A stretch of 64,000 bases of DNA from Sphagnum magellanicum (lineage: Eukaryota; Streptophyta; Sphagnopsida; Sphagnales; Sphagnaceae): the NCBI GenBank assembly GCA_021904315.1, contig CM038916.1, forward strand, positions 930,001 through 994,000, in the 5' to 3' direction. The notes beneath the pieces are model-generated. The model saw only the letters and a program-made list of their open reading frames with translations, was not told the DNA's origin and made no database searches. Made by a program: the position numbers and the translations under genes. Position 1 is the stretch's first letter, and every line of letters begins with the position of its first letter. Below, piece after piece: positions 21,449-62,940 of the stretch.

Positions 21449-22439
21449 TATAGGTTTTGACCCACATTGATCTTCAAACATTCATTACTCATGCATGCTT
21501 ATAGTTATGTGGTTTTGGTAGTTTGTTAGATGACCAAATATTATTAATTTGTGTTGGTGTTTTTATTTTTCTATATTTTCTTTGACAACTTGGTCCACCT
21601 GATTTTTCATTTCAATCTTAGTTTGATTTGAAACATTGGTAGGTGGAAATAGACCAAATGAAGAATATCTTGTAATGTAATGAATGCATTTACAAAAACC
21701 ATTCCCACATTAGGAAAAGTAATGTTGTTTTCCATGTAATCATATCATGAAAGCTTGATGTTGAGGAGTTTATTTCCACTTTTGGAATCAAACAAATTCC
21801 TAAATTTTATGCATTAGAGGTGTTTGTCTGTTGATAAAAGTTTTATTAAAATGTTAATTGTCATATTTGATGTATAAACATACTTGAACTAAATTTGTTT
21901 GTTAAGTACCTTTTTTTGAATGAAATGGTATTGAATTTCCATATGTTTTTTTAAAAAAATTGGTATTTGGGATTTTCACTTAAGGTTAAGTTCATTCAAT
22001 AATTTCAAAGCCAAACTACTTCAATCCATATTCTTTTCACATAAAAATTAATAGCCTTTGTGAAATAACACCTTCAAAATTCAAGACATTAAAGGTTAAA
22101 GTTCTTCTAAACCAATTATAAGATCAAATAAAATTACATTGCACTTATAAATAATAACTTCATCAACTTTGAGCCGTTTTTTCTTTTTTATGTATTAACA
22201 ACAAAATCCACATTAATTTTTAGAGTTATTGGTGGACATTTATCAAAATTTAACAAAAAAAAAAAAAACACTTGTCTAGACAATTGTTTTAAGTTTTCAA
22301 ATCATATAAAAGGACTCTTAAAACATCATAAATTAAAATTACATTTTTTAGATTGAAATTTTGCAAGTAATGGATTATGGAGCGTATTAAAAAAAAATGG
22401 CAATTCCAATTATTGTGTCTTTTTTGTGATTTTTCAAAA

Positions 22440-24210
22440 ATGTAGGGGTATAGTTTTTAAGTAGTGTCCATACACTTTGTACTCCTATGATTATGTTTTC
22501 ACCCAAGTAGCGAATTAAAAACATTACAATTTTAACATCTAGTTTCAATGCATTTCTAGATTATGTTGTATGGTTAGTGTGATTAACACATTAATGGAAT
22601 TCTATTTATCCATAGGAGAAAATGTTTTCTATTTAGTTAACTCCTTACATTTACGAGAATTACCTTGACATTAGCCTAGCCTTGTACATTTATCAATTGT
22701 TCCAGCATCATTAATTTTAATCTTGAAAACTCATTTAGAGCTAATTGGGGTTCTATTGGAAGGGAGAAGGGTCATGAACATCCACTTGTGTTATTCTTTT
22801 GTAAATAATATAATTCAACATTGATGGCATCTTGCATTCTTTAACATAAGATTTCTATAAGGTGTATTTTATTATGTGAAGAATCTTTAAAGATATATTT
22901 GCTAAATTAGCTTGATAAACTTCTTTACATGAAGTTTCTTAATTTGTGGTTTATTTTCCTTCTATGGACTCTATTAGCTTTTCTGTAAGTTGAATTTGTT
23001 TCTTTTAGGTTGAAAAGAACTAGGTGGATTTTGTTGTAAATGAAATTTTTCATGTGCTGTAATATTATGTGAAATTAGATCTTCTTTAGGCAAGTTTTTT
23101 TTATCATTGGAATTAATGGAAGTTGTGAAAAGTTTTCAATGAGGTTACTTTGAAAGAGTTGACCAAATGTTGTGGTATTCCCACACGTGTGAAATTAATT
23201 GTTGGTTTGAATTTATAGAGGCCACCCATTTGGAGGTAGTGCAACATTTTGGATTTGTGTTGTTGGAATATTTTGATTTGGCATTAAAATAGGTCTTTAT
23301 TGCCCTTGTATTGTTGGGGTGTTTAATTAACACAAAATAACAATTCCTTTCTTTCTTCTTCCTTTTCCAATAGGTGTTTGTTTTCTTGACAATTGTCAAA
23401 GTTTTTGTGAAAGATAACATTTCTAGATATAACTATAATTCTATCATAAAATGATAAGATTTATATTCTTCACTATACCCAAGAAAAATGCATTCATAAA
23501 AATGTGAATTCAACTTTTTTTTCCTCCTTATGAGCAAGAATTTTATTTTACACCCAAAACTTTTTAGGCACAACACATTTGGTTGTCTTCCATAGCATAA
23601 TTCATAAGGAGTTTTATTTTTAGTTACAACATTTTTTGGACTTTGCTTTGCTAATTTTTCTTTTTAAAGGTGCATCCTTCCAAAACACCTTAGGTACCTT
23701 AACATATGATAACATAGCTAAAACAACCTTGATTAGAGTTTTATTTTTCCTTTTAATACACCAATTTGTTGGGGTGTATAAAAAGTTGTAAACTCTTTTT
23801 TTATGCCTTCCTTTTGATAAAAGAGATTGAACTCACCAAATTTTATACTCATCTCCATGGTCAACTTTAAAAGTTTTAATATTATGATTAGTTTGTCTCT
23901 TTACAAAACTTTTGTACATAGTGGGAATTTTGATCAAATGCTTCAAATTTATGTTTCATGAAATAAATTTAACAATATTTTGAAAAGTTGTTTATAAATG
24001 TAATGAAAATATGTGCATCTTCAATGTGTTCTTATTTGTAATGCACCAAGAAATTGGTCAAAATGTGCAAGTTCAAGAAGCTTTGTAATTCAATGAACTC
24101 AATTTTTGGGAAATTTTCTTTTATGTTGTTTCCCTTGGATGCAAGGTGTACATAAAATAATTTCCTTCTCATGAATTGTTTTAATGCCTATTGATGTACA
24201 TTGCATTTGG
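22440..24210 (-). pseudogene. Decayed Ty1/copia polyprotein (integrase and reverse transcriptase), copy 1
   Basis: Minus-strand reading gives an integrase-core-like stretch (IKTFKVDHGDEYKFGEFN) near 23790-23880, then integrase C-terminal text near 23600-23700. At 22660-22790 it gives reverse-transcriptase N-terminal text (VFKIKINDAG). The frame is broken by many stops and shifts. It is the counterpart of 46290-48420 but lacks about 700 bp that copy 2 retains near 48020-48725. Confidence 0.65.
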
Positions 24211-26718
24211 TGTAGTCCCAAGCATTCATAAGTGGTAATCACTTGGGACTTGAAGTTTTAAAAAGTTGGGCCAAAAATATATATAGGTGGCAAATCTTGT
24301 GTAAATTGGGAATTTTTTATACCATATTTTGAAAGCTCTTGAAATGTAGATATTCTAATTGAACTTGCATTTTCCATTGTTAAATTTGAAGTGTAAGTTA
24401 TATGGTCAAAATAAGGACAATGAGTTTAATTGACAATTTGACTCCCAATTATTAAAAACAAGGAAATAAGTGGAAATGACCTTTGATTGAAACACACGAT
24501 ATGGTATTGGAAAGATCTCATTGAGGGCTATAACTTTTTAGCTTCACCCTACTCAATTGAAGTTTATATGAAAGAGTTATGAACTCACAAAATTTCCATA
24601 ATTTGGGAATCCTTGGAATTTTGGCCATTTCGATGTAACCTCTATCACAATTATAGTAATATATATTAGAAGAAGGAAAGTATTTGCCTCCATCCAAGTT
24701 TGGGCCATGTGAATGTAGTGAGTCCAAAAGAAGTTTATGACCCAAAGTTGACTTCATTTGCATTAACCATTTGATTGTTTGGCTTATGTTAGTGATTTGT
24801 CTATGAAGTTTTCATGATATTGTCCTAGTCCCATTCTAAATCTTCTAGGCACCCCTTTTTCCCTAGTGTGAAGACCTGGGAAGCATACCCCCAATTTTTC
24901 CTTCTTTTTCACTTCTTTTCATTATTGTCCCTTGTAGGGTTTATTCTCAATACCTTGGGACAAACTTAGGGGTGTGTCACTTATAATGAAAACCCTTATT
25001 GTTTAAAAAAGATTTATTCATAGCAAAGGTTTAAAAATTCCTTTTGAATTGAAAAACTTTTTAAAATTCTTATTAAAACCAAGCTTTTTGTTGTAATTAA
25101 AACCATTTTTTCCTATATAAAGGGTTGATGTGTTATTTGAAGTTGAACTTAAAAGTTTTTCATGAAAGTTTTTTCTTGTATTAAAATTTTGAATAAAAAC
25201 TTTAATGCTTAGTTTGGTTGTCTTCCTAAATAACTTATGAATGTTTTATGATTAGGAAGCATGTTGTTCATTGAAACAAGTATAATTTCATTATTTGGTA
25301 TTGTTGCATTTGTTGTTAAAAATTGTTACAAATGGGCTCAAAACATATGAATGTGTTTTGTAACATTATCATTCCCTCTCATTCTTAATGTATGAAACAC
25401 ATCTTTATATACATTTTGGTCATTGAGTAAATCAAAATTTAAATAGTCCAACTAATTTTGCCCATGCTAATGCCAACATCTAGCATGATGGGATATGGGA
25501 GATTATCTTATTGTCAATGCAATTTTTAATGATTGTTAAAGCTAATGCATCTTATCTTCCCATGGACTATTTTCTTCCTATTCATGTGGCAAGTAAAAGA
25601 GGAATTCCAATAGTTATTTGTGCTATTGAAAGTGCAATTGGTTTGATTTCTATTTCATCAATTAATAATCATAACTTTTTTTGCATTGAAAATAAGTGTA
25701 AGTCTATGTTTCCAAATATTGAAATACAATTTGCTGGAAGTTTTGAAAGATGATTTATATTATACTTATTTCCATTTTGAAAACATAAGCAATTATTAAA
25801 TTTTGGATTGCATTAATATTTAATTTTATTAGTCATTATAATAAACACTTGTAATGATTTAAAAACAATGTTGCCTTAACTATGCTTGTTAGCTTCAATG
25901 TGGATGTGATTGTTTGTCAAATTTTCAATTTATCACACACTTATCACTCTTTTGTTCAAGAAGATTTTTTAAAATAAAAATTTGCAAATTCTTTGCATGG
26001 TTCACAAACATAATTCAACTGTGAAGAATCACATGGTTCAATAAAACCTTAATTTTCATAAAGGGTTTCAATTATTTTAATTTTTTTTTTTGTGTTTTTC
26101 AATAAAATCTTACAAATATTATTGTCAAACAAAGACATTCTAAGATCGCATCATACAAAACCAAAATGTCTAATTTCTTTAAGAATTAACTTCTTTATGT
26201 AATGGGCTACCATAATATTCAAAACCACATTGAAAATCCTTCTTAATAATGACATTATTGAAATTTAAATATGCACCACTGAAAAGTATATATATAATGA
26301 CACACAAAAGGGGTCCCCTATAATTAATGTGCTTTGACACGTCTATAGTTATTAGAGGTTGCAACTTTACATATCAAATATTAGAACTACAGGCATGTGA
26401 TTGTATGTATTATTTCCCACTAGTGTATTAAACTACATATATATTATAATTTTTTGACACATACAAATACATTGAGTTACATGTACATACACATTATGTA
26501 TTGGTTGGACAGTGAGCAGATCATGTAGCTCCAACCAAGGCATAATCTTGTAGTTTAGATTTGACGGCATGGAAGTTGAAGTATCCTTCACAGTATTACT
26601 TTCTTGGAGGGGTTTGATGTCCGATCATGGCCCCTGTGCTCCGGAGGGAGAGGCTTCTTACGGGGATTGGATGGGAGTGAGTGCTGCACAAATTGACATC
26701 CATCAACTCAATCAGTTC

Positions 26719-26723
26719 CATCC
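26719..26723. other. Empty integration site CATCC matching the solo LTR in copy 2
   Basis: A single CATCC stands here between CAATCAGTTC and ATAACATAAAGAAC. In copy 2 the same flanks carry CATCC on both sides of a 932-bp LTR (51946-52877). This is the pre-insertion state. Confidence 0.85.
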
Positions 26724-27143
26724 ATAACATAAAGAACTTCAAAAAATTTAATTCTCCATTTCTTTTTGGTCACCTTCCCTCACAGAATTTCCCTTTCTAC
26801 CACAAACGAACGTTCTGTTCACTAACGATATCAATTTCATTTTCGAAGAACCTTTCATTTTGGTAAGTAAGGAACTTTTCTGAACTGCATCTTCCTGGCT
26901 TTGGTTTTTGGGTCTAGCCTCATGCTACCGCCCTCAGCTGGGGTCTCTCAAACTTAGAAAGATCCTTAGAAAATTCCTTACCTTATGCCTTCTATCTTAA
27001 GCATCCAGGGATGTGGGACAAGAACTGTCTTCATTGTCTTTCAAGACGCAGTCAAATTCTCACATGGATGAAAGCAAAGAAATCATCAAAACCCTCATCT
27101 GCAGTTGCCTCATTCTTTCTTAACTTGAACCTTTTGACAACTC

Positions 27144-30100
27144 TCACGTACCCTTCATCCCTCCGACAAAGTCTTTGAAATCGTCAAGGCATGGTTGGCC
27201 CATGAGTGTTGAATCAAGTCTCATGTAGGTGAAGTAAGATATATTGTGATGAAATGCGACATTGATAATCCGGTCATACGAGTCCTTATCGTAAGCTGCC
27301 AATGCATTCTCACAAGCTCTAGAGACCTTACTGTCTTTGGCCACTCCCAGCACCTACACACCATAATTTGAACTTCCATGATATCAAACATTGTCATCAG
27401 CAGGTCAATCCTCCAGAGATAGTATTCATCCTGTTCCCCAGATTGGCTTGAGAAATAGAAGCTGCTCTTTTATTGGTCGTATGTTCTTGGAGATTGGGTC
27501 AGCCAAATTGGGTGCCTCGCATTCTCAGATGCAATTTCATGTAGTTCAATTCTTTGTTTTACAAGAGTAGTGGCAAGATACTAACTCTCCCTCTTTCTCC
27601 AATCAGTTTACAGAGCCCAATTTTTATGTCTGGTCTACCATATCATGTCAAGGTTGTGGATCATTCAAAGAACGCATGTACCTGCTCGACAAGTGCTTCA
27701 GGGTTGCAAGATGCATTGGCGTATTTTTCCCCAGCGGTGGTCAGTTCTGCACATGTTAAAATGAAGGTGGCGCTCAGGACTTCAAGCGTGTCAGCTATGG
27801 ACTTGTACACAGAAAGATGGTTAGGAACGCCATTGAAGAGCCCTGCTGTTGCCTCTGCTGCATGGCTTTCGTCATCATACCACCAATGGATCCCCGGAAC
27901 CTGCATTGAAAATGTTCAGTTGCAACAGTGACACCATGAATCAGACGCAACCATTATCAATTTACCCTTCTGAATCTGCGCAGTTGTAAGTCTTTGATTC
28001 CTGGATCTCTTATCAGGTTTTGAAGTACCCAGATTGAAATTGTCAAACACTCAGTTCCTCACTGTTTAACCATGAACATACTAGACAAGAATTTATGAGC
28101 AAGGTGTTTAAAAGACCCCTTCTAAATGTACAGGGGAGTTTATAAGTTGCAATTGGACGCAAAGATAACTGGTCATTTTGGCTGATGAATTATGTGGCAG
28201 GGGCCGATAGAATGAGATAAGAAATGTATCAACTTTGACACCCCTACATAGTTGTTATATTTTAATATGTGATCTGCAAAGATTGAACTTTTTTGCCACT
28301 GTAATTTGAGAAGCCACCCAGCAACAGTTGACCCAATTTCTCTATGGCATCTCACCTTGGCAGCAATTTTGACATTTCTAGACTTGAAGACGTCCTTGGC
28401 TTTTTTCAACACTCCCTTCCCATGAGCAACCAATTTTTCTGAGTACCAGGTAAGAAAAGATTTTCCATTGTCGTTCCAGTAGCGTGGGCCATTGATCAAA
28501 CTTGTCTCTGGTTGCTCCGGTTGGGCTTGGAAAAACAGTGTTTGATCTGGCTCTGAATTATATCCCACGTCTTGCGGTAATTGTAAATTTTGACTCTTTG
28601 CTTCTTTCTTCCACTCCCCCATCATGTACTCGTCATAACACTGCTCACAATCGTGCCCCGTGGACACACATGATTTGAAAAGTTCAATATTTTAGCCAGA
28701 GTGAACCAACAACCCACCATGGAACCATGTAGGAAGGATTGTGTGTGGGCAGGAATGGTTTTTTTCATTTATTCCTGTCCCAGATCTAAAACCACAGTGG
28801 TTAACAATGTACCAACCAAGTGTTGGGCAGTTCTTTACTTTTACGACGAACCTCTTGTTCCAGTTCTGAAAAATAATTTAGAACACTTTCTGTTCTAGTT
28901 CTCGTTCCACACATAATTGAAAATCCAATTCCAGGTATGGTTCTTTCCTCAAAAAAAATTCTGGTTATGATTCTACTTCCGCTTCTGAAAATCAGACTCA
29001 GTTCTAGTCCAGTTCCAGGTTGCAATCTGGACTGGAACTAGGGGATGTTAACTGTCGATTAGCACTCAATTCTAGCCTTTTTTTGTTTCTCAGAAAGCTC
29101 AGTTCCACACATAAATGAAACTGGGAATTCAATTCTGGGTGCAGTTCTTCAAAAATATAAAATCTGGGTCCGGTTTTGAAATCGTTGAAACAAAATCAGA
29201 ACTGATTTCAGTTTGATTTTTACTAGTTCCAGAACCGGAACCACCGATTTTAACCCTCCAAACTGGGTAACAGCCCAAAACTGCTACCAACCATCTGGAC
29301 ATGCACCTACTTACCCGTAGTACTCACCCACTTCCATAGGTAGTCAACTAGGTAGAGGAAGGGGACTCTTCACATCACATCTTCACAATCAGAGTGACAC
29401 AATCTGTATTCACTGACAGTTACTGAAATTCTAGTGCAAAATAGGTCAGATGCATTCTTAGTTGACCTAGAAAATGTACATGTTGTTGGACATCCCTCTC
29501 AAGGATTCTGCTTACAAAACTTTCATGACATTTACCCAGACGCTGCAGACAACAGAGTGCCATGGGATACAACCATTTGTAGCCTTCCCATAAATCTAGT
29601 GTAAAACACAAGAAGTAGTGAAAGGATGGCAACTGCTGCAACACTTTTTTGGTCCAACTGTACACGCATTGACAAAAGGTGCCCACTATCAGACACTGCA
29701 CAAATCCTCTTGAGCACAGGAGTCTTGTTCCATGTGGTTTCTTTGAAACAAAGCTTGATTACACGTAGCAGAAGATTTACATAGGATGATTCCACTTACC
29801 TGAAACTCACCAACACCTGGAAACTTCCATGGAAATCGGTATGCGGGATACCTCAGCTCACCAGAGGGACCAAGCCCAACCTCAATCATGGTGATGATTC
29901 CTTTTTCGTCTCGTTTGTCAAAATAATCAACCATATGTGTATTGAATCCATTCATGAAGTCTTCGTACACCTGCCAAGCAACATCTCAGCGGCCTCATTC
30001 TTCAGACCATGTTATGTAGACTGCCTCAATCTAGAAGTTTAAGGAAGTTTTTGTACACCTGCCAAGCAACATCTCAACGTCCACATTCTTTAGACGATGT

Positions 30101-31641
30101 TATGTAGACTGTCTCAATCTAGAAGTTTATGGAACCTTGATTGGCCCAGTGCTCTTGTTCACAAGCATGTGCTCCATTACGTATGCGGAAGCTCAACCCT
30201 AAAAAAAATTCATTTCAATTGATTACCTTTAGTGGAGACACAGGGTTACCGTTTTGATCTTCCAGCACATATTCTTTGTCTACAGCCCATGACAAGTACT
30301 CAGTGCTGGGGTTGTCCTGCGCATCTTTGTAGAAGAGGTCTTTTTTCTCTCCATCCCTTTTCACCCAGCCAGGTAGAGGAATAGTCTCAACTCCATTTTC
30401 AACACACGCGTGGAATGACATCACCACCTGATTATCCACATACCCATGACAGATTACCCCAAAATGAAGGGCCCCAAAAACAGTTGAATCAGCCCATGCT
30501 TCAACAAAGTAGAGCGAGATGGTTAGAGCTCATAATACGAGTTCACATCATTGAAGTACCTGGGAGCTTTCTGGAGGTAAATTCGGACAACCCGGCTAAT
30601 CCATTTCAAAATGTCCAGTCTTAAGAAGATGAGCATCCTAAGGTTGACAGGGTACGCAAGGTGATTAGACTAAGTAGGAGTAACCACTAATTTATTACTC
30701 CTATCTACTAAGTAATCATATTCAAAGTCAGTCAAATTAAGCGGGACTTACAATTTGATACCTTACCAAGTTAGTCAGTTAAAAGCATTTAGTATTCCCA
30801 ATCGAAAAGGTGGGCAAAAGACCTTCTCATTCCTCATTACTCATTACACATGGAGAACTTCAAATCCCCCAAAGATCACACAATTCATAGGAGCTCCCCA
30901 AGCTTGAAAAACAGCCTTTGGTGGTAAACTTACATGAAGTTCAAGATTTGCCGCTTTAACAATGGAGAACAAGTTCTTGTATCCGTCCCAGTTATACTGG
31001 CCGGGACCTGCCGCTTCAACTCGTCCCCACCAGCAATCCACCATCACCCCTCTCACTCCATTTGATTGCAACGTCTTCAAATCTCTGGTTAACTCCCCCT
31101 CAGACTTATTCTTATCAGCCGGCTCCTTCCCATAGTTGACTTCATGCTGTTTATTTAGAATGCTCAACTGCACGCATTCATTACCGGATGTCACACACAT
31201 AGCATTGAGCATGAACAAGTTACCAATCGCAAGTTCATCACAAAATTACTTATGAGCAGCCTACATGCCCAGATGAGCACGGCACATTCGTGGACAAGCA
31301 TTGGGAGCAAAAACAATTGAACTTAGACGATTCGGAATCCAGCTCGCGGCAAGACACACGAACCCGCTCAGGGTACAGTATTGTCCACCTCAGGTCGACA
31401 ACATCACATTTACAAGACATGTGGCTAACGGCTGTGTATAGTAGTAAGCTCATAACAGTCGGTTGTGAAGACGGGACGTATAAAATCGATACATGGACGT
31501 GCATCATTTGTGCTTGCAGTGGTCAAGTATTGGGTTATCTAAATTAACATTGACCAAGCCCTGAGAGAGTTAGTTGAATACCGGAAGCATGACAAAGACA
31601 GGAATACCAGTTTTGGCGCCGCTTCCAGACGGCTCAGCCAT
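27144..31641 (-). CDS. BAM: Beta-amylase-like protein A (glycoside hydrolase 14), 459 aa
   Basis: GH14 enzymes release maltose from the non-reducing ends of starch chains. Seven exons, right to left: 31582-31641, 30934-31167, 30227-30427, 29800-29970, 28356-28640, 27682-27900, 27144-27353. All junctions are phase 0 with GT-AG. Recognised blocks: IPVFVMLP (13-20), GVMVDCWWG (60-68; D64 matches the substrate-binding aspartate), VMSFHAC (100-106), IEVGLGPSGELRYP with catalytic acid E203, FLTWYS, GIHWWY, and LTCAE with catalytic base E369. ATG at 31641 is preceded by an in-frame TGA 45 nt upstream; no transit peptide is seen, so a cytosolic location is inferred. Oddities: the GGNVGD flexible loop is replaced by VENGVE with a 2-residue shortening; the usual MRDxEQ after the base is LTTAGE; and exon 2 is 12 codons shorter than in gene B. 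These suggest altered or lost activity, but all splice sites and the frame are intact. Confidence 0.88.
28818..29280. mobile_element. hAT-like MITE in intron 4 of beta-amylase A
   Basis: The left end reads CAAGTGTTGGGCAGTTC and the right end reads GCCCAAAACTG, an imperfect inverted pair. The flanks are GTACCAAC and CTACCAAC (7 of 8 bases), as expected for an hAT 8-bp target duplication. The interior is made of degenerate GGTTCCAGTTCTGGTTCC-like repeats. Related copies lie at 36368-36779, 54968-55806 and 62941-63368. Confidence 0.75.
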
Positions 31642-31823
31642 GATTCGTGATTCAGCTGGAACCTGCAAAGACGTCGTGGATCAGCTAGAACCTGCGAACA
31701 CGTTCGGGGGATAGTAATGATCAGCGGGCCGGCTGAGATTTCTAATCCGCGTATCGCAACTTGTTGCAGCAAGCAAGCGAAGAACAATAATGTCACAAAA
31801 CCTGGCAAGTGAGCAATCCTCAA
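31539..31823 (-). promoter_or_regulatory. Upstream ORF overlapping the beta-amylase A start (94 codons, out of frame)
   Basis: An ATG at 31823 opens a frame that starts MRIAHLPGFVTLLFFACLLQ, looks like a signal peptide, and runs past the beta-amylase ATG at 31641 in another frame. The predicted TATA box at 31861-31866 places it in the 5' leader. Gene B has the same ORF with an in-frame 6-bp difference. It may lower translation of the main frame. A chance ORF preserved only by recent duplication is the alternative. Confidence 0.4.
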
Positions 31824-31860
31824 AGCTTCTTCTCACAATGGACTCCACTCACTCATTTCA

Positions 31861-31866
31861 TTTATA
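31861..31866 (-). promoter_or_regulatory. TATA box of beta-amylase A
   Basis: TATAAA on the minus strand (within GGTATAAATG), 220 bp upstream of the ATG. The same sequence is found at the equivalent place in gene B. A transcription start near 31830 is inferred. Confidence 0.55.
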
Positions 31867-32041
31867 CCTGTTACATCCATGGTTCGTAGAATGCAATGTA
31901 GCTAGGGTAGCAACTAGCTAACGCGGAACAGAAGCCGATCCTATTCAATTCTTGTGTATAGGAGAAGTTGGCACAATCCTTTTCTATCCTCAACATGTGC
32001 ACTATTCAATTGAAGGAGCCTATTTTGTTCTAGAGAGCCTA

Positions 32042-32123
32042 GGGCGGATTCTGTCAGGTAAACGTTCCCTGGAGAAGCCTGTCAGGGCAAACTCGGGGTA
32101 TGTGCAGCTGGCAGAATCCGCCC
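32042..32123. repeat. Inverted repeat upstream of beta-amylase A
   Basis: GGGCGGATTCTGTCAG at 32042-32057 pairs with CTGGCAGAATCCGCCC at 32108-32123 (15 of 16), with a 50-base loop. It is about 400-480 bp upstream of the ATG and present at the same place in gene B. Confidence 0.8.
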
Positions 32124-32269
32124 AGGCCGGCCTGCTCGCTGGCCGATTCTTTCACATCAATGAGGCTGAAATATAGGAAGGATTCCCGCACTGACTTTAG
32201 TGTCATTTTAAGCAGCTACTTGGAAGTTTGGAACTTCATGGAACCGCAGGACGTTTTACCCGCCCATGC

Positions 32270-32369
32270 AACTTCACGGGGTCAAGGCCGCGCTCTTCAC
32301 GGTTATGCTGTAATTGCGTCTTTTGCGTGGGCGAAAGGTATGCGGGTGCCCCTTTGACCCTGTGAAGTT
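32270..32369. repeat. Second inverted repeat upstream of beta-amylase A
   Basis: AACTTCACGGGGTCAA at 32270-32285 pairs with TTGACCCTGTGAAGTT at 32354-32369 (15 of 16). Flanking CATGGAACTT-type words continue outside it. It may be the remains of a small inverted-repeat element. The counterpart at 58903 onward in copy 2 is partly decayed. Confidence 0.7.
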
Positions 32370-32424
32370 CGATCGGGGAGTATAATGCTTTGCCATGGAA
32401 CTTGATTAGATCAAGGTAAACCAC

Positions 32425-35400
32425 ATGGAACTTTGATGCTACTTAATGAGATCGTAAACATGAGGTTATTTTTTTTTCCACTTTTCTGAGGTAGGTACCA
32501 TCAATTGGCAAAAACCCCCAAAAAGATTTAACATTGATTGATGACATGTTTCTAAAAATTGTCCAAATGTAAACGCTAAACCCAAGAACAGTGATCAAAT
32601 ATTATTGCCTCAAAATAAAAAGTTGTGTTAAAAAGTAATGACATTTTCTTTTTAAGAGAATTTTTTTCCTTGATTTTTTTTCAAAACAACAAGCTATCTT
32701 GAACAGCATATTCTTATTTTATTTTTCTCCACAGTGCAAAAATTAGACACTAAAAAAACACTGATCATGAACTATAGAATGTAGGTTTCTTAATAATCAT
32801 CAATTTGATGAAGCAACTAGTACTTAATTGCACAGTCCAGGCAATTATTAGTTGCTTGATAAGACTATTGGGCTGATTTACAATCCCCTTCTCAAAGGTG
32901 CTTACGACTTCTAAGGACATCTCTATCGCAATCCAGCAAAGAACGTCTCATAAATGCAACAACATAAATGCAAGTTGTTGGTTCGCTTGTAGGTCGAATG
33001 CGAGTGATGGTCAGTCGTGTCTCTCTGCACACACAACGTCGACCCTACCAAAACAATTTCCTTTGTTTTCATATTCACAACAATTAGGATTAGATTGGGA
33101 GCTTGATGATTTACATGAGCTTGCAAATGATCAAGGTCTTGTAAGTCAAATTTGGGCTTGGGTTTGAATGTCAAATCATTTGAAACTCCTAGCCTCCTAG
33201 AAGGAATTGTCACACTCCCAAGAAATGACTTTTGGTAACAAATGATGTGGAAGGAAAACCTTATGTTGTAGTTCTAAAGGAAAGGGAGAGTGGTCCCAAC
33301 ATCAAGGTTCACAAAGGTATATTCGATCTAGCCAAAATTAATGGAGAGGCCACCACCTAGGGTCATGATGCTCTTTGCTCAGCATTCCTAATAATATTCT
33401 TAGGTTGGTGCCTTGGGGAGGTCATTTCCATTATATTCCAAATGATGTGTAAAAGATATAATGTGCAATTATTGAAATGAAATAAAATATTAAAATAATT
33501 TAAATGTCAATAAGGTTCCAATAATTCATTATGAGAATATATTTGAAATATATATAATATATTTTAAAATATATTTATAATATACTCAAATTATGTCATT
33601 ATTTCATAGCAAATTTTAAAATGTTTTTTTATTTCAAGTGTTTCCTAAAATACACAAGTAGTGACTTCCCCCAGGGTTTGTGGTCCAATTTGCAAAATGG
33701 AGAGCTTGACAATTAAACTCCTTCACTCCACACATTGCAAACCAAAAAATAAGAAGGTTTTTTTTTGTTTTTGTTTTATCCATCCTTTGTGAATCACAAC
33801 AACCAAAAAAGTCAATGAATTCGAGCACCCAAGGAAATGAAGCATGCTAAGGAAAGACATGCATTTGGGCTCTTGGTGACAAGAACAAAAGTTGAATAAT
33901 TATTAGAATGAGGTTGCTGCTTGTAAAATTTTCATCAAAATGTCATTGATGGGCCTAATAAGGTACTATGGTGGAAATGCTCTACAATAATAATTTAAGG
34001 TGGGATTGTTCTTGCTTTCTAGGGAAGGGATGGGGGTTGGGCACTAACCATATATATAAAATAACTGTCACACTATGCTCCATCTTAATACAACGAATCT
34101 TAAATATGAAAATTGTATGGTAAAGCCCAAGGGGCTACGGGCTTTATTGCAATAAGGGGGCTAACATAGGCTTAATTTCAATAAGGCCCAGAATCAAGGG
34201 TTTTATTGAACATAAAGCCTTGGGCAGATTTTAATTTTTTTTTCCCACAATACCTAGTGGATATTGATTGGGTATCATGAAAAGCAATCAAAAACAAAAA
34301 TGAATGTTTCAAAATGTTCACCCTTTGTAGAGTATACTTGTCTAAGGTCCCATATAATGAATTTTTCTCAATTTTCTAACGTTGCATAGTGGCTAATATC
34401 CCAAGAAAGATTTAATAATTAATGGCAACATGAAATCAAAAAATAAAAATAAAAATTGTAATCCTACTACTATTTAACACCCTCATGTAGGAGCAAGCCT
34501 TGTAAATTTGGCAAACCAGTCCAAACCCTTGTTTTTATGGGAAAAAATCCAAAAACAGCCTTTGTAAGGGTTGCAACTTGCAACCCAAAAAACAAATTTT
34601 CTTTTTGACAAAATTTCACACCAAAAGAAAACATTGATCTTGTATATTGATTGTTGAGAATAAATATTTTGATTGATTTTATAAGATCACATTTAATTTC
34701 AAAACCTAATATGATTAATGTAGGGTTTGCGATAGTCTTAGGTATTTAAAAAATCAAACAAATTATGGTACAAAAATATATTTCTATAGTTCATAAATTT
34801 AGGTTCCTTGTTGAACAAAAAAATGGATACCAGTAGTGGATTTAAAAAACTTTCGTGCTTTGTATATATGCATGTGCACCTCAAACTTTGTAAAAGATTT
34901 AGGAGTTTACTGGATTTAGAAAGTCAACTGTCTCTACTTCAATGATTTTCATATTTCATAATATTATATGTTTGTTCTTTGATTATGCTTTTATTCATCA
35001 ATGGATGTTTGCTTAATATATTCGAGCATGTGGATAGATTGTGAATCCCTCATCAATTCTCACGACTTTAATTAATATTAAAATTTTAAGCAAATATATA
35101 ATACCACAATTCAACATGTGTAAAATTTAAATTAAGTTTAAGGTGTTAGCTTAATAATGTCAAATTTTAACATGAAGTACCTAGGTGAAAGCATAATAAA
35201 ATAGACACAAAAAATAGTGTAAACAATCAAATATTGGGGTCTCTATGTAAAAGGATTAACAAATAGATGATTTTACAAAGATAATATTATTTTTTTCGGT
35301 AGATTATTTTAAACTTTTGTTTGCATGAACTTCAAAAATTAAATTATTATAATCATGTTTTTTTACACTATTTGCAAGTATTTAATTTTTTTCTCGTACA

Positions 35401-36360
35401 TCTCAATATTGATGTGGTGAACATTTTAATACAATTTTTTCGGTTAATGAATTTTTTTTTCATAGTTAAAATCATTCCTAACTTCTAAAAGATGACAAAA
35501 ATTTTGGGGATGCTTTTGGAGTACATTTTCAAATCCAAATGATATGGCACAAATTGTTTTTAAAAGCTAGAGGGAAATTAAAAATGCCCATAAAAAAAAT
35601 TAAAAATTTCAGTTGTTTTGAAATGTTAAAAAAAAGTTAAAAACTTTTCAAACTATTTTTTTGGTGTTTTCAAATAGAAAATAAGGAATAAATATATACA
35701 AAATATCTTGCTTGCACCCACTTTTACCCCTAAATATGTGCGCACATGAAGATCCTTGATGCTACTTAAAAATGAAATAACACAATTGAATAATCAAACC
35801 ATGATGGATAAAATTGATAAAAATATATCAATCATGGGACATGGTTGAATTGTGTTAATGGATGAAATTGTAATAGGTACATTAATGAAGATGAATGATA
35901 TGAATGCAAATAATTAGATGGACAAAGTTATTACATGAATAATGAAGTATACCACATGCATGCAATTAATGATAAATCCAACTTTGTCAAATATTTTAAT
36001 CTCATCCATAAGTTCAAATTTTATCCATGTGTTTAATCCATCATCATGGTATTTCCCAATAATGTCATTCACATAACCACATCTTCTTATATAATTCATG
36101 CCACCTGGTCTGTTGTTGATTTCAACCATGTATTGGGCATCAATTCTTTCATCTATGTAACTCATTTCATTTGAGTCATGAATTTCATTTATGTTATTTT
36201 CATTGAAAATTTCATGTGTGCTATTTTTACTTCTGGATTTCATTGTGTAATTTGTGCAAACATGTTTGGTTTATTTTCCTATTAACCAGAAAATAAATTA
36301 ATAACTTCCCCTATTTTGTCCTACCCTAGAATGGGGCCAGGATGGAGACTGAGGGGGGAA
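32425..36360. other. Upstream flank of beta-amylase A, AT-rich duplicated DNA
   Basis: Shared with about 59050-62935 in copy 2. No confident gene. Two open frames are retained in both copies: a 38-codon one at 33244-33360 (plus strand, VEGKPYVVVLKE) and a minus-strand one around 35914-36243 (INEIHDSNEM, RRCGYVNDIIG). Neither belongs to a family I recognise; transposon remnants are likely. Copy 2 has a deletion of about 90 bp relative to 33865-33955. Confidence 0.4.
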
Positions 36361-36367
36361 TGGGGGC

Positions 36368-36779
36368 TAGCGTTGGGCAGTTCGCCAGTTGGGGTGGTTA
36401 GAACTGTCAGTTTCCATTTCAGTTAGTAAAAAGTGAACTAGAACCGCCTCTGATTTTTGGAACCGGGAACTGGAACCAGGTCTAAGACTGGGTCCGATTC
36501 TGGTACATGGCTCTAGAATCAGAACCAGAAATTTTGGCCAAAAAAAAACGTTCTGGAACCTGGGGTTAATCAGTAGTTAAGTGTCAGCTTCAGACCAACC
36601 AGGTTGCTCGGAACTGGGTTTGATTTCCAGAACCAAAACCAGAACCTGTATTATTGGTCACTCAAGAACCGAACCAGACCTCGGTTTTCAGTTTTTGACG
36701 GAACTGGAACCATTATAATTTATTTTTTTTAAACCAAAACCAGAGGTTCTTCATAAAAGTCAAGAACCGCCCAACACTG
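36368..36779. mobile_element. hAT-like MITE, opposite orientation to the intron 4 copy
   Basis: The left terminus TAGCGTTGGGCAGTTC pairs with the right terminus GAACCGCCCAACACTG. Flanking 8-mers ATGGGGGC and GTGGGACC agree at only 5 of 8. The reverse complement of the right end matches the left end of the element at 28818. The interior is GAACCAGAACC-type degenerate repeats. Confidence 0.65.
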
Positions 36780-37395
36780 GTGGGACCTGTGCATATCTGC
36801 AGGGCCCGTAAATCAGGGTACCAAGCACCCCAATAATGTGGACAAAATACAAAAGGTTTGTGTTTCAGACCTACCCCAAGTAGGCCAAGTGGGCCGGGGT
36901 GGTGAGGGGAACTGAAACACAAGGTATCAAGAGCGACCCGCACGGTGTGGAGAATATGAAAAAAAGGAACCAAAGTATTGTATTTTGGTTGTTTTTAAAT
37001 TGCCAGATTGCACTTCAAATAATACCTACCGGGAGTTGAGATTCAACGTTTTCTATTTAGAATTGTGTCAATTTGTGGGGGGGGGTGGGGGGACAACTCG
37101 GTAAGGCTCTAGCATATTGCTTCTTTGAAGTCCATTGAATCCATCTTTTACTGAAATTCACAAATACCATTCATAGTAATTTATGACCCAATAATTTGAA
37201 AGTTTTTAAAAAAGGATTGTAAATTTTTTTAAGGCTTTAGTTTAAATTAGTTTAATTAAGATTCTTTAAATACAATTTTCATAGTGTGCTATATTTTATT
37301 TTGGGCCTTCCCTTGTTAAAAATATTTAAGAAATATAATAAGATGACAATTGAATGTTCATTATGTAGAATCAAGTAATTACTATATATATATAT

Positions 37396-44493: not shown

Positions 44494-46289
44494 CCTCCCC
44501 TCTTTTACAACATACTACATACCATGTATTCATTGAAAATTATCATGTACAAATTCGACACAAAAGGGGGGCACACATGCAACAAATTCGACACAGAAGA
44601 ACATGGATATCTCCATGCAAGGGGGCACACATGCAACAACTAGAAATGCTCTTCATCATGTAAGCTCAAAGAAGGACAAGTTACAACTTAATTCTACTAA
44701 ACACTCTCCAAGTCCAAAATTCAAGGTAGAAATGACTTGTGTTTGAATTAGATGATCTATCGTGAAAACTATTCAGTAGACTTTTAATTGTTAAAATTCA
44801 TAGAAACACATAATAAGAGGGACAATACTTAATGTTCTAAAGTGTTTTGTTTTGTATTGATAAAATTAACATCATATATATCCTTGCAAGAGTCATATGT
44901 AAACTTCAAAACTAATGTTTGTAAAACAAGAGGTCATAACTCTACATATTACAATTGTAGGCATAGTCGTCTATATTGTCTCCTACTAATGTATTGAACT
45001 ACATATATATTATATAGTTTTGACACTCTCACTCATAGTTTTTCATCTACAATCTTCATTCATTTTGAACTAGTATCTGCACCAAGCTTAGGATTTGTAG
45101 CTCTTATTTTGTGCTTTTGAAGCACTCTTTTGTACCTTTTTTTTTCCTTTTTGAAATTTGAATACAATTTTAAAGCACAAAGTTTATTAAACATTGGTTA
45201 ATCGTGCATAATTATAGTCATGTTGTTTTGGCAATTTGTTAGATGATCAAATATTACTAGTTTGTGTTGGTGTCTTTTTTTTTAAAAAATTTAACAACTT
45301 GGTCCGCTTCGTTTTTCATTTCAATCTTGGCTTGATGTTTTATTGAAATGATAGTGTAGATCCCTACATGTAGTGTGGATGAATATCACATATTTGACAT
45401 GTTTTTTATATCTTGCTCTCACTCCAAGATTCAACCATTGATGGGGTTTTTGTTGGTTGTGACAATAAAACTATGGTCGGTGGAAAGAGACCAAATGAGG
45501 GGATCTTATAATGTAATGAATGCACTTATGAAAACCATTCACACATTAGGAAAAGTAATGTTGTTTTCCTTATAATCATGTCATGAAAGCTTGATGCCGA
45601 GGAGTTTGTTTTCACTTTTGGAATCAAACAAATTCCTAGGTTTTTTATCAATTGGATGTGTTTATCACTTGATAAAAGTTTTATTGAAATGTTAATTGTC
45701 ATATTTGATCTAGAAAGACACTTGAATTGAATTTGTTTGTCAAGTACCTATTTTGAGCAAAGTGGTATTTGGGATTTTCACTTAAGGCTAAGTTCATTCA
45801 ATAATTTCAAAGTCAAACTCCTTCAATCCATATTCTTTTCACATAGAAATGAATAGCCTTTGTGAAAGAACACCTTCAAAATTCAAGATATCAAAGGTTA
45901 AAAGTTTTTTAAAACCAAATATAAGATCAAATAAAATTCATTGCACATATAAATAATAACTTCTAAAAATTTGAGCCTTTTTTTTAAAAAATGTATTAAC
46001 AAAAAATCTTCATTGATTTTTAGATTGATTGGTGGACATTTATTAAGGGAAAAAAAAATTCCAACAAAAAAAAAAAGCATTTGTCCATACAATTTTTTTG
46101 AGTTTTGAAATCATACAAAAGAACTCTTGAAACATCATAAATTTGAATCAAATTTTCACATTGAAATTTTGCAAGTAATGGGGTTTACTCCCAAAGAAAA
46201 ATGATAATTCCAATTTTTTCTTTCTCTTGTGATTTTTCAAAAATGTAGGGGTATAATTTTTTAGTAGTGTCTATACACTTTGTGATTCT

Positions 46290-48420
46290 TATGACTGTGT
46301 TTTCATCTAAGTAGCTATTTAAAAACATTAACATTTAGTTGATGCATTTCTAGATTACATTGCATGGCTAGTGTGATTAGCACATTAATGGAATTCAATT
46401 TAACGATAGGAGAAAGTGTTTCTATGTAGTCAACTCCTTGCATTTATGATAATTCCCTCGTCACTTGCCTAGCTTTGTATTTGTCAATTGGTCCATCATC
46501 ATTAGTTTTAATCTTCAAAACCCACATAGAGGTAATTGAGGTTCTATTGGGAGGGAGAAGGGTCATGTACTTCCAAATGTTATTCTTTTGTAAATAATCT
46601 AATTCAACATTGATGGCATCTTGGCATTCTTTAGCATTAGATTTCTATAAGGCTTCCTTTATTATGCGAAGAACCTTTAAAAATATATTTGCTAAATTAG
46701 CTTGGTAAACTTCTTTAAATGAAATTTCTTAATTTATGTTTTTTTCCTTCTATGGACTCTATTAACATTTTTTTAAGTTGAATTTGTTTTTTTAAGTTGA
46801 GAAGAACTAAGTGGACTTTGTTGTAAATGAAATTTTTCATGTGCTATCATATTTTGTGAAGTTACATTTTCTTTAAGCAAGTTTTTTCTATCATAGGAAT
46901 TAATTGAAAATTGTGAGAAATTTTCACTGAGGATACTTTGAAAGAGCTGACCAAATGTTGTGGTATTCCCACACTTGTAGAATTAATTATTGGTTTGAAT
47001 TTATAGAGACCACCCATTTGGAGGTAGTGCAAATTTTTGGATTTGTGTTGCTAGAATGTTTTAATTTGGAATTGAAATAGGTCTTTGTTGCCCTTATATT
47101 GTTGAGGTTATTTTACAAAGTTAGCACAAAATAATAATTCCTTTTCTTCTTCTTCCTTTCTTTATAGGTGTTTGTTTTTTGACAATTGTCAAAGTTTTTG
47201 TAAAAGATGATATTTCTAGATATGACTATATTTATATCGTAAAACAATAAGCCTTAGATTCTTCACTATACCGAAGAAAATTCCTTCATGAAAATGTGAA
47301 TTCAACTTTTTTTTCCCTCCTTATGAAGAAAAATATGTTATTTATACCCAAAACTTTTAAATATGACAAATTTGGTTGTTTTCCATAGCATAGTTCATAA
47401 GGAGTTTTATTTTTTGTCACAACTTTTTTTGGACTTTTTTTTTGCTGATAATTTTCTATTAAAGTTGCATCCCTCCAAAACACCTTAGTTACCTTAACAT
47501 ATGATGACATAACTAAAATAATATTGATTAGAGTTTTATTTTTTCCTTTTAATACACCATTTGTTGGGGTGTATAAGAAGTTGTAAACTTTTTTTTTATG
47601 CCTTCCTTTCGATAAAAGTTATTGAACTCATCAAATTTATACTCACCTCAATGGTCAAATTTGAGAGTCTTAGTTTTATGATCAGTTTGTTTCTCTAGAA
47701 ATTTTTTTGTACATAGTGGAAAATTTTATCAAATGCTTCAAATTTATGTCTCATGAAATAAATTTAGTAATATCTTGAAAAGTTGTTTGTAAATGTAATG
47801 AAATATGTGCATCTTCAATGTGTTCTTATTTGTAATGGAACAAAAATGTCAAAATGTACAAGTTCAAGAAGCTTTGTAATTCAATGAACTTTTTCAAGTT
47901 GGAAAATTTTATTTTACGTTGTTTCCCTTAAATGTGAGGTGCACATAAAATAATTTCTTTCTCATGAAATGTCTTAATGCCTATTGACATACATTGCAAT
48001 TGATGTAGTTTTATTTGTTTTATGTTGTTTAATCTTGTATGCCACAAATTGATTTCACTATAATATGTAATGATATGATTTGCTAGTACATTTGGATTAG
48101 CATATGTTGTACAACACCCACCTTATATAAAGCAAACATTAATTTTCACATTGCAATCACTACTCTTGATTAATTTGTTAATGGACATATGCATGATTTA
48201 ATATGTATGTCTCCACCAACTTTGTCAAATTGTTTAATTGAAAAAAGTTCTTTCTTAGTCTAAGGATAGAAAGAGCATCAAGGATTTGTTTGTTTACTCC
48301 ACTAAAGAGCGTTATAGTGACATCATCTTATCCTTGGATTCTACCTCTAGAATTATTGTCAAAGTCAACTAGTTGATGATTGTTACAAACTGTATAATTT
48401 TTCAAGGATCCCTTTCAAAA
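46290..48420 (-). pseudogene. Decayed Ty1/copia polyprotein (integrase and reverse transcriptase), copy 2
   Basis: Minus-strand text shows the copia integrase C-terminal signature NKTPYELCYGKQPNLSYLKV (47300-47420). Further downstream are reverse-transcriptase blocks: KNAKDAINVEL near 46620, WVLKIKTNDDGPIDKYKAR near 46480-46540, then GVDYIET and SPIVKLNSINVL near 46400-46440. The order integrase then reverse transcriptase is that of Ty1/copia. Stops and frameshifts are frequent, and RNase H was not found. Limits are approximate. Confidence 0.75.
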
Positions 48421-50279
48421 CACATATGCTATGTAGCTTCAATATCTATATACCAAGTATGATTTGATTTTTCCTTCTCTATCAATACAAATTCATAAAT
48501 TTTATAAAATTTATAGTAATGTTAGATTGATTGTTATTATTATTCTAGCTTCATTTCCTAATTTGGTGTCTTTCATCATATGTCTTAATTTTTAAAAATT
48601 GTCACAACCCTCAACTTGGGTTCACAACCAAGGTTGGGACATGAAAAAAGAAAAAGGCCAAGAAAGTGTTTTGAGACTCAAGGACACTCTTATGCAAAGA
48701 GTGAAAAAGTGAGAAAGATGTGAATCTGATGCATTCATAAGTGGGAATTACTTGGGACTTGGAGTTTTAAAGATCTGGGAAAAAAATATACATCAATGGC
48801 AAATCTTGTGCAAATTGGGAGTTTTGCAATGTAATTTGAAAGCTTTTGAAATGTAGATATTGTAAATGAATTTGCATTTTCCATTGGGAAATTTGAAGTG
48901 TAGGTTATAGGGTCAAAAGAAGGACCATGAGTTAAATTGACATTTTGACTCCTAATTATTAAAAAAAGGAAATAGGTGGAAATTACCTTTGATAGAAACA
49001 CACAATATGGTGTTGGAAAGATCTTTTTGACAGCTATAACTTTTTTGTTTCAACCTCCTCAATTGAAATTCATATGAAAAAGTTATGAACTCACAAAATT
49101 GTGGGATTCATAACTTGGGAATCCTTGGAATTTTGGCGATTTCAATGTGACCTCCATCACAATTACAATATAATATATATTCTAAGGAGGATATTTGCTT
49201 CCTTCCAAGTTTTGGCCATGTGAATGTAGTGAGTCCAAAGCAAGTTTGTGACCCAAAGTTGACTTCATTTGCATTAACCACTTATTTGTTTGGCTTGTGT
49301 AAGTGATTTGTCTATGAAATGTTCATGATATTTACATTGTCCTAGTCCCATTCAAAATCTCATGCACAATCTTCTTTTCTGAATGTGAGGAGCTAGGAAG
49401 CATACCCCCAAGTTTTCCTTCTTTTTCCTTTCTTTTCATTATTGTCACTTGTAAGGTTTATTCCCAATACCTTGGGACAAACTTAGGGGTGTGTCACTTA
49501 TAATAAAAAAAAATTTAAAAAAAAGATTTATTCATGTCAAAGGTTTTTAAATTATTTTTCCTTTTGATTTGAAGAACTTTTTGGAATTCCTATTAAAATT
49601 GGCAAGCCTTTTGTTGTAATTAAAACCATTTTTTCCTATTTTGACAATTACATTACAAGTGCAGTGCCTTGATGTGTTATTTGAAGTTGGACTTAAAGGG
49701 TTTTCATCAAAGTTCTTGTATTATACTTGTCATTAGAAACTTTCATGTGATGTTTGGTTGTTTTCTTAAAAAACTTATGAACATTTTATAACTAGGAACT
49801 TGCGTGTTGTTCATTAAAACAAATATAATTTCATCATATGATACTATTGCATTTGTTGCTAAAAATTGTTCCATATGGGCTCATGTGTTAAGTAGCATTA
49901 TCATTCCTTTTGATTTTTAATGTATGCAACTTATCCTTTATGTGCATTTTGGTCATTGAATAAATTGAGTAAATTGAGATTTAAATAGTCCAACTAATTT
50001 TGCCCATGCTAAAGCAAACGATTGGATTATGTTATTGTCAATGGAATTGTTGATGATTGTCAAAGCCAATGCATCTTCATCCTCCCTTATAATATTTTCT
50101 TCTTATTCATGTGACAAGTAAAGGAGGAATTCCAATAGTTATTTGTGTTATTGTAGGCGTAATTGGTTTGATTTCTATTCCATTAACTAATAACCATAAC
50201 TTTTTGTCTTGAAAATAAATGTAAGTTTATGTTTCCAAATACTAAAATACAATTTTCCAAACTTTGATATGGGGTCAAA

Positions 50280-50724
50280 ACACAATCAAAGGAGCCATAA
50301 AAGGTGTTAGATGTCAAATTTTGTCATTAAAAACTAAAGATTTATTCATTTTTCACCATTTGAAACCATGTTAATCATGGCACATTATTCCTTTTTAACA
50401 CACATGAGTGTTAAGAAACTCAAATTAAAAATCCATTTGATTCAATTTTAGGTTTTGATTTATTTAAAGATTTTTGAAAATGAAAATTTTGATCATTGAA
50501 AAAGAACATTTTTACAAAGGAATTTCAAAAGACTCATATAATAGAAGTGAATAGTAAAAAATATGAGATGATAATAACCTATTAGACACACTCAAAAACA
50601 TTCACAATTTCAAAAATGTGAAGTTTTAAAACTTTGAAATTCAAAATATATAAACTTGAAAATTTAAAATTTCAACTTGAATATTTTTTTATCACATATA
50701 AATGGGGTATAATGTACATGATGT

Positions 50725-50765
<41 letters not shown>

Positions 50766-50985
50766 CATTAAATTTAAATTTAAAATATTAACATTTTTTG
50801 GTATGCTTTCAAATTATCATCATTTTGAAACATAGACTCTACAAGTAATCTATACATTTTTACAAATTCATATTTATTATAAAATTATTCAATTTTTCAT
50901 TTGACTTATTGAGGAAATTTTAATCATTTTTCATAATAAGTTACAAAAGAATTCATTTGTATGAAGAAGTTATTTTTGCGAGATA
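50280..50985. repeat. Segment matching 19760-20480
   Basis: Same blocks as its counterpart in copy 1 but located between different neighbours. See the entry at 19760. Confidence 0.6.
50731..50760. repeat. (TA)15 microsatellite
   Basis: Perfect TA run seen directly. The counterpart segment in copy 1 lacks it. Confidence 0.95.
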
Positions 50986-51945
50986 AGGACATGCAACCTT
51001 AATGTAAAGTAACACTTGTGATTCTTTTAAGTGCATTTTGACCCAATGTGACTTATATCTATATTTTTTTTCATTTTGACAGCATTACCAATTTTTCATT
51101 TTGAACTACATCAATGTTTGGTTTCATTAATCATTATAACAAACATTTGTTATGGGTTTCAAACAAAATCATCCTAATTATGCATGTCACCTTCCATGTG
51201 AATATGATTGTTTGTTAAGTTTTTAATTTACCACACATTTGTCACTCTTTTATTAAAAAATATATTTAGATAAAAATTTGCAAATTCTTCAATTTATTCA
51301 CAAACATGATGCAAATTATGTGAAATTATATGGTTGAATAAAACCATATATATATACTTTAATTTCAATAAAATCTTACAAATATTATTTTCAAACAACT
51401 ATATTCTAATATTAAATAATATGAAACCAAAATGTCAAATTTCTTTAGAAATTAACTTCATAATGTAATGGGCTATGACTATATATATTAAAACCATATT
51501 GAAAATCTTTCTTAATAATGACATTGTTGAAATTAAAAAACGCACCACCCAAAAAAAGAAGTATATAATGACATACAAAAGCTGTCCCCTATAGTTAGTA
51601 TGCCTTGACACGTCTATAACTATTAGAGGTCCCAACTTTACATATCAAACATTAGAACTATAGGCACTTGATGGTATGTATTATTTCCTGGTAGTGTATT
51701 AAACTACATATATATTATATAATATATGACACATACAAGTACAAGTTACATGTACATACACATTATGTATTGGTTGGACAGTGAGCAGATCATGTGGCTC
51801 CAACCAAGACATAATCTTGTAGTTTCGATTTGATGTCTGATCATGTCTCCTTTGATCCAATCCTTCATGATGTGGACTCTCCTTGAGGGGATGTGATGGG
51901 TAGTGCTGCACAGATTGACATCCATCAACTCAATCAGTCCCATCC

Positions 51946-52877: not shown

Positions 52878-53242
52878 CATCCGTAACAGAAAGAACTTCT
52901 CCACTTATTTTTAGTCACGTTCCCTCACAGAATTTCCCTTTCTACCACAAACGAACGTTCTGTTCACCAACGATATCAATTTGATTTTCAAAGAACCTTT
53001 CATTTTGCTAAGTAAGGAACTTTTTTGAGTATCTGCCTGGTTTTGGTTTTTGGGCCTAGCCTCATGCTACCGCCCTCAGCTGGGCTCTCAAACTTAGAAA
53101 ATCCTTACTTTATTCGTTCTATCTTAAGCATCAAGGGATGCCAGACAAGTGACTTCCTTGTCTTTCACGACGCAGTCAAATTCTGAAATGGATGAGAGCA
53201 AAGAAATCCTATGACACTCATCTGCAGTTGCCTCATTCTTTC

Positions 53243-58215: not shown

Positions 58216-58391
58216 GATTCGTGATTCAGCTGGAACCTACAAAGACGTCGTGGATTAGCTAGAACCTGCGAACACGTGATAGTAATGATCAGCGGGCCGG
58301 CTGAGATTTCTAATCCGCGTATCGCAACTTGTTGCAGCAAGCAAGCGGAGAACAATAATGTCACAAAACCTGGCAAGTGAGCAATCCTCAA
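58113..58391 (-). promoter_or_regulatory. Upstream ORF overlapping the beta-amylase B start
   Basis: Counterpart of the ORF at 31539-31823, opening with the same MRIAHLPGFVTLLF and staying open over the main ATG in another frame. It differs by an in-frame 6-bp deletion. The deletion also creates CACGTG (a G-box) at 58274-58279. Confidence 0.4.
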
Positions 58392-58428
58392 AGCTTCTTC
58401 TCACAATGGACTCCACTCACTCATTTCA

Positions 58429-58434
58429 TTTATA
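58429..58434 (-). promoter_or_regulatory. TATA box of beta-amylase B
   Basis: TATAAA on the minus strand in the context GGTATAAATG, 214 bp upstream of the ATG and identical in context to gene A. Confidence 0.55.
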
Positions 58435-62935: not shown

Positions 62936-62940
62936 GGGGT

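Follow-up and report, generated by a model that had tools for sequence, protein, structure and literature searches.

Why should the exons of a duplicated enzyme gene differ more between its two copies than the introns that separate them? The question is raised by two beta-amylase (GH14) genes, here called A and B, that lie one in each half of a large imperfect tandem duplication within 64,000 nucleotides of Sphagnum magellanicum DNA (GenBank assembly GCA_021904315.1, contig CM038916.1, positions 930,001–994,000; hereafter the window, to which all coordinates refer). The introns and flanks of these genes differ by 1–17% between copies, and exons 2, 3, 5, 6, and 7 differ by 11–32%. We propose, with a probability of about 0.72, that tandem duplication of a Bmy1-like gene was followed by selection that repeatedly favored amino acid replacement, chiefly at polar positions. 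The comparison rests on one gene pair, with codons gapped in either copy dropped, so that 454 codons were compared between products of 459 (A) and 483 (B) residues.

Divergence of exons, introns, and silent sites

Gene A (27147–31641) and gene B (53246–58215) are both encoded on the minus strand and have seven exons each. All 14 exons are open and in phase 0 and all 12 introns run from GT to AG, in agreement with an earlier sequence-only reading of this DNA that had described frames and splice sites as intact. The exons are as follows.

Gene A, exon 1: 31582–31641, minus strand, identical in B
Gene A, exon 2: 30934–31167, minus strand, hyper-divergent in its first half, almost invariant between copies in its second (VMVDCWWG...)
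Gene A, exon 3: 30227–30427, minus strand, carries the substituted flexible loop VENGVE
Gene A, exon 4: 29800–29970, minus strand, catalytic motif GELRYP, 8 replaced codons and 0 silent changes
Gene A, exon 5: 28356–28640, minus strand, hyper-divergent
Gene A, exon 6: 27682–27900, minus strand, divergent
Gene A, exon 7: 27147–27353, minus strand, most divergent, stop codon at 27144–27146
Gene B, exon 1: 58156–58215, minus strand
Gene B, exon 2: 57470–57739, minus strand, 12 codons longer than in A
Gene B, exon 3: 56761–56964, minus strand
Gene B, exon 4: 56325–56504, minus strand
Gene B, exon 5: 54506–54793, minus strand
Gene B, exon 6: 53828–54046, minus strand
Gene B, exon 7: 53246–53473, minus strand, seven residues longer than in A, stop codon at 53243–53245

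Ungapped nucleotide identity in exons 1–7 is 1.00, 0.79, 0.89, 0.95, 0.73, 0.81, and 0.68, and the corresponding residue identity over ungapped codons is 20/20, 55/78, 53/67, 49/57, 49/90, 50/73, and 37/69. Divergence of introns 1–6 is 0.065, 0.057, 0.035, 0.156 (0.174 by local alignment), 0.125, and 0.125, and that of the 3′ and 5′ flanks is 0.088 and 0.012. When exons 5–7 are cut into blocks, five of the seven blocks are 19–27% divergent and the other two 10%. The sequence-only reading had held that the exons diverge faster than their own introns, which is borne out for exons 2, 3, 5, 6, and 7, all of which fall below local intron identity, and not for exons 1 and 4, which have no excess divergence at the nucleotide level. 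Its protein count for exon 7, its low ranking of exons 5 and 6, and its description of exon 1 and the second half of exon 2 as nearly unchanged are all recovered here, as is the 12-codon gap in the first half of exon 2 (78 codons in A, 90 in B), which the aligner splits into three gaps. The 88–96% identity that it gave for introns and upstream DNA is about right for five of the six introns and fails for intron 4 (about 83–84%) and the 5′ flank (98.8%); of its two example stretches, 31260–31560 is 95.7% identical and 27901–28330 is 86.7% identical.

The excess is found at codon positions 1 and 2. In exons 5–7, 119 of 464 such positions differ, compared with 126 of 1100 positions in introns 5 and 6 and the 3′ flank (p = 1.1e-11), and in exons 1–4 the counts are 54 of 444, compared with 65 of 1175 in introns 1–3 (p = 1.5e-5). 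It persists at more than four codons from any gap (p = 0.0017 for exons 2–4 and p = 2e-11 for exons 5–7). In the first half of exon 2, 31 of 80 positions 1 and 2 differ and 1 of 20 silent third positions does. A cleaned noncoding set omits the middle of intron 4 and keeps 2911 of 3423 positions; results with that stretch included were obtained as well. Residue classes (hydrophobic, polar, or mixed) were tabulated for the 396 of 454 codons with all three relatives present: positions 1 and 2 of polar-class codons differ at 110 of 448 sites, about three times the rate in the cleaned noncoding set (240 of 2911; p = 5e-21), and those of hydrophobic-class codons differ at 17 of 240, which is not different from noncoding DNA.

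Silent sites give another picture. Among the 454 codons, 313 keep their amino acid (22 of them silently changed) and 141 are replaced. The 4-fold sites of unchanged codons differ in 11 of 145 cases, namely 5 of 81 in exons 1–4 (compared with 65 of 1175 in introns 1–3) and 6 of 64 in exons 5–7 (compared with 126 of 1100 in introns 5 and 6 and the 3′ flank). All of the 76 codons with two or three differences are replacements, while only 27 of 956 noncoding triplets (cleaned) or 58 of 1120 (all; both are means of three frames) have two or three differences. Replaced codons are interspersed rather than set in blocks (runs z from -1.18 to 0.14 in the six exons tested), and block-like replacement is most nearly approached in the first half of exon 2, where there are also indels. 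Unchanged codons flanked on both sides by replaced ones are silently changed in 2 of 22 cases within one codon, 10 of 79 within two, and 12 of 108 within three, and the corresponding 4-fold changes are 2 of 11, 5 of 35, and 6 of 48. The differences also follow the codon frame in part: pairs two bases apart number 43 within codons versus 25 and 20 across codons, and adjacent differences number 46 at codon positions 1–2 versus 29 across codons.

Selection and its alternatives

We suggest that a seven-exon Bmy1-like gene, which had probably already lost the standard flexible loop, was tandemly duplicated. Selection would then have pushed roughly one codon in five far beyond the neutral rate, mainly at polar positions that would lie on the protein surface, judging from residue type in the relatives. 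The introns would meanwhile have kept to about the neutral rate, as would hydrophobic positions and, at their silent sites, the codons whose amino acid is unchanged, and the multi-hit codons would be the product of selection rather than of mutation.

The ratio of nonsynonymous to synonymous divergence (dN/dS) by NG86 is 0.96 overall and 0.89 in exons 5–7, and YN00 and maximum likelihood give 1.2–1.3 overall. These pairwise values are only about 1 because codons with several changes inflate dS, and naive dN/dS, with silent changes placed on inferred pathways of multi-hit codons, was set aside as a measure. Neither outcome named as refuting the sequence-only reading (exons at least as similar as introns, or exons 5–7 clearly under a dN/dS of 1) was obtained. 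A pairwise site-class codon model was used, and was refined by adding multinucleotide rates. The likelihood-ratio test (LRT) statistic for a class with omega >1 is 78.5 without multinucleotide change, 59.9 with the multinucleotide rates of the cleaned noncoding set, and 41.3 with the full noncoding rates; the highest value among 60 simulations under the null with these full rates (fitted distance 0.224, class weights and kappa chosen by us) was 4.2. The neutral distance recovered from exons 2–4 is 0.056–0.061, and that of introns 1–3 is 0.053–0.058. In a check by predicted counts, in which one of the models with multinucleotide change used t =.286 and rounded class weights and kappa, the selection models reproduce most counts. 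With multinucleotide rates as in noncoding DNA, neutral models arrive at 74–91 replaced codons, compared with 141 observed.

Several results weigh against selection. Free fitting of the double and triple rates on the exons removes the need for omega >1 (LRT 1.75, p = 0.42). A mixture in which some codons are young and others very old (the latter 27% of codons, at distance 1.2, with omega no higher than 1) gives a slightly better fit per codon (log likelihood, lnL, of -2716.4 versus -2720.7, with one extra parameter), also with noncoding multinucleotide rates (-2716.5 versus -2718.8). At the full noncoding rate, the parts taken alone give p = 0.04 for exon 5, 0.11 for exon 6, 0.09 for exon 7, and 0.23 for exons 3 and 4 together. 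The fitted neutral distance of exons 5–7 (0.16–0.18) exceeds that of the introns (0.11–0.12), the fitted omega of 16–51 in a fifth of the codons is very high, and the selection models expect 27–28 replacements between two 4-fold codons, about 8 of them with a third-base change, where 16 are observed, 9 of them with such a change. Nor do hydrophobic positions fall under the neutral rate. For exons 5–7, the evidence from codon frame and silent sites is mixed. Adjacent differences at codon positions 2–3 (31) are no commoner than those across codons (29), noncoding DNA also has clustered differences (77 adjacent pairs versus 40 expected), and silent third positions other than 4-fold ones differ at 9 of 63 in exons 5–7, compared with 65 of 1100 for noncoding transitions (p = 0.015). 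This silent excess is due to exon 7 (6 of 19, p < 0.001; 3 of 44 in exons 5 and 6 without it), and some older or imported sequence may thus sit in exon 7.

Imported sequence is the core of an alternative that we regard as improbable, in which ectopic conversion from a divergent beta-amylase locus replaced exons or exon parts of one copy and spared the introns, as these have no homology to the donor. Besides the silent sites of exon 7 and the per-codon fit of the young/old mixture, it is favored by the NG86 dS of exon 7 (0.515) and exon 5 (0.333), both above intron divergence, and by the BAM1 of the structure database, which is closer to B than to A in exon 5 (43/91 versus 31/85), exon 6 (34/70 versus 29/70), and exon 7 (28/66 versus 19/66). 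However, the 4-fold silent sites equal the local introns in exons 1–4 and 5–7, and replaced codons are not in blocks. Moreover, two old-exon models, for the second of which the class weights were chosen rather than fitted, predict 38 and 33 differences at 4-fold sites, where 11 are observed, and 65 and 57 silent codons, where 22 are observed. Of the two explanations offered by the sequence-only reading, diversifying selection is thus supported, with the caveat of multinucleotide change, and patchwise exon conversion is disfavored within this gene pair, given that 4-fold sites match the local introns and the replaced codons are interspersed. Mutagenic conversion of the exons from cDNA was also considered, and was dropped because silent sites would be hit too.

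Multinucleotide changes are reported to be able to mimic selection (PMC6332903). An exon-specific excess of double and triple mutations in the absence of positive selection fits as well when these rates are free (0.455 and 0.486, omega 1; lnL -2717.7 versus -2716.8), and we nevertheless consider it quite improbable. Noncoding rates are 0.05–0.10 for double and 0.01–0.05 for triple changes, of which the exons would need 4–9 and 10–40 times as much, and the excess is confined to exons, partly follows the codon frame, and falls on polar positions. We know of no mutator that acts in this way.

It is very improbable that the copies are old, with long-diverged exons, and that conversion later homogenized the introns and flanks while exon tracts were kept apart. 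The mosaic divergence of the duplicated unit, described below, is on the side of this proposal, as some exchange between the copies is likely; yet 4-fold sites follow the local introns in both halves, even beside replaced codons (2/11 and 5/35, which are small numbers), and homogenization would need to operate on stretches only a few bases long. A last alternative, in which one copy decayed or came under relaxed constraint, or the gene model or assembly is wrong, is hardly credible: naive dN/dS near 1, the loss of positions invariant in three relatives (68 in A, 58 in B), and the change of hydrophobic positions at about the noncoding rate are consistent with decay, but neutral decay cannot exceed the intron rate, and open exons, GT and AG at every intron, and kept catalytic motifs argue against this alternative.

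The duplicated unit and neighboring sequence

The window has a GC content of 35%. Pieces located between about 10.8 and 37.4 kb match 43.1–64.0 kb, with one minus-strand GH14 gene per half, and two features of this duplication are listed here.

Duplicated unit, main part: 21631–37393, no strand assigned, matches 45468–64000, with further pieces from 10784 on
5′ block spanning exon 1 and the beginning of intron 1: 31331–32137 versus 57905–58705, no strand assigned, 791 of 801 aligned bases identical (98.8%)

Noncoding divergence across the unit is 9.8% (15,558 aligned positions) and forms a mosaic, mostly 9–15% at 21.6–29.4 kb, mostly 3–10% at 29.6–37.4 kb, and 1% at 31.3–32.1 kb. We noticed that within intron 4, at 29400–29600, it drops stepwise from left to right, from about 12% to about 5%. 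The unit thus seems to combine segments of two ages, and such a mosaic makes some exchange between the copies likely. Noncoding blocks that are at least 16% divergent are few (mid intron 4, 18.4 kb, 22.2 kb, 25.8 kb, and 19.6–20.4 kb); the match of those at 19.6–20.4 kb is out of register and could represent a different repeat. Intron 4 contains a repeat-like stretch (28730–28928; 54881–55685), of which B has two copies similar to each other; this is the probable reason why identity is low in that intron. The blocks adjoining the 5′ block differ by 6–9% between copies, and the 5′ block itself may reflect either recent conversion or a conserved control region.

A 91-bp tandem duplication (29956–30134 and 56490–56668; 90–91% identical) that runs from the end of intron 3 into the opening bases of exon 4 is present in both genes, and is therefore probably older than the gene duplication. 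Near the end of exon 7, both copies contain GGTACGT (27146–27152; 53266–53272), a possible splice donor, which suggests a possible eighth exon in both genes. No third beta-amylase copy was found within the 64-kb window by tblastn. Outside the beta-amylase genes, minus-strand open reading frames at 3283–3753 and 4877–5179 match HMG-box and ARID and are perhaps one ARID-HMG gene.

Protein family, likely function, and meaning

Both products match Pfam PF01373 (Glyco_hydro_14) with 280.1 (A) and 278.8 (B) bits, compared with a cut-off of 27, over spans of 405–408 residues. Among solved structures, the closest to each are beta-amylases, with 29 distinct sequences per query; going by the entry codes, these comprise the enzymes of sweet potato, barley, and soybean and a chloroplastic beta-amylase 1. 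The alignment ends near residue 436–446 of known beta-amylases. In an alignment to three solved plant enzymes, A and B keep GELRYP, CENAL, and the inner-loop FTC/LTC; GELRYP and CENAL presumably hold the two catalytic glutamates. In soybean numbering, the catalytic glutamates of GH14 are Glu-186 and Glu-380 (PMC6394054). Both copies carry VENGVE where the flexible loop would read GGNVGD, followed by a two-residue deletion, and this common change probably predates the duplication. A heavily substituted flexible loop is described in PMC6394054 for inactive BAM4 and for BAM10, which is held to be likely inactive. Given the substituted loop that both copies share, A and B likely have weak or no amylase activity, despite the kept motifs. 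When the 141 changed positions are compared with three structure-database proteins, 45 match only B, 16 only A, 6 both, and 74 neither; both copies would thus be changed, A perhaps more so. Judged by eye, with no predictor run, MAEPSGSGAKTGIPVFVMLP has no evident transit or signal peptide.

Among known systems, A and B agree with Bmy1/BAM5-type beta-amylases (e.g., PDB 1b1y, 2xff, and 5wqs) in the GH14 domain, in kept catalytic motifs, and, by exon count alone, in their seven exons, the number reported for barley Bmy1 (PMC3760831). They differ from these enzymes in having VENGVE with a two-residue loss in place of GGNVGD, and in the diversifying pattern. The non-catalytic BAM4 and BAM10 likewise have a substituted loop, whereas BAM10 is predicted to be plastidial and often has serine for Thr-342 (PMC6394054), and A and B keep the Thr of FTC/LTC and have no transit peptide evident by eye. 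Snake three-finger toxin genes, in which exon segments are switched while introns stay similar (accelerated segment switch in exons, ASSET; PMC2474615), are also duplicated genes with similar introns, sharply different exon stretches, and a kept fold. In the toxins, however, whole segments are switched, whereas in A and B single codons are replaced between unchanged ones, with no clustering into contiguous blocks in the runs tests of six exons, and the product is a plant GH14 protein without an evident signal peptide rather than a venom toxin. Conotoxin superfamilies similarly conserve introns and diversify the encoded peptides (PMC3862624), but these are small peptides of two or three exons, whereas A and B encode a barrel-type protein of 459–483 residues with five of seven exons changed at the nucleotide level.

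Divergence of exons beyond introns is known from venom genes, which show the nearest known pattern, and is unexpected for a beta-amylase. No such divergence or selection in beta-amylases was found among the listed titles and abstract openings on positive or diversifying selection, inactive members, pseudoenzymes, or the flexible loop, and the phrase "positive selection" is absent from the beta-amylase paper PMC6394054. The likeliest function of A and B would be that of weakly catalytic or non-catalytic binding or recognition proteins under recurrent selection. A further step, tentative and in itself unlikely, is that the beta-amylase scaffold has given rise to a rapidly diversifying pseudo-enzyme family engaged in an arms race, e.g., by binding proteins of pathogens or herbivores. 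If this were true, a barrel of primary metabolism would act as venom and immune genes do, its surfaces hyper-variable and the 5′ regions of its genes nearly identical. Should more copies confirm the pattern, a probably inactive enzyme family would join the genes of conflict, and, with neutral introns next to every exon, these genes would offer a good test case for distinguishing selection from multinucleotide mutation.

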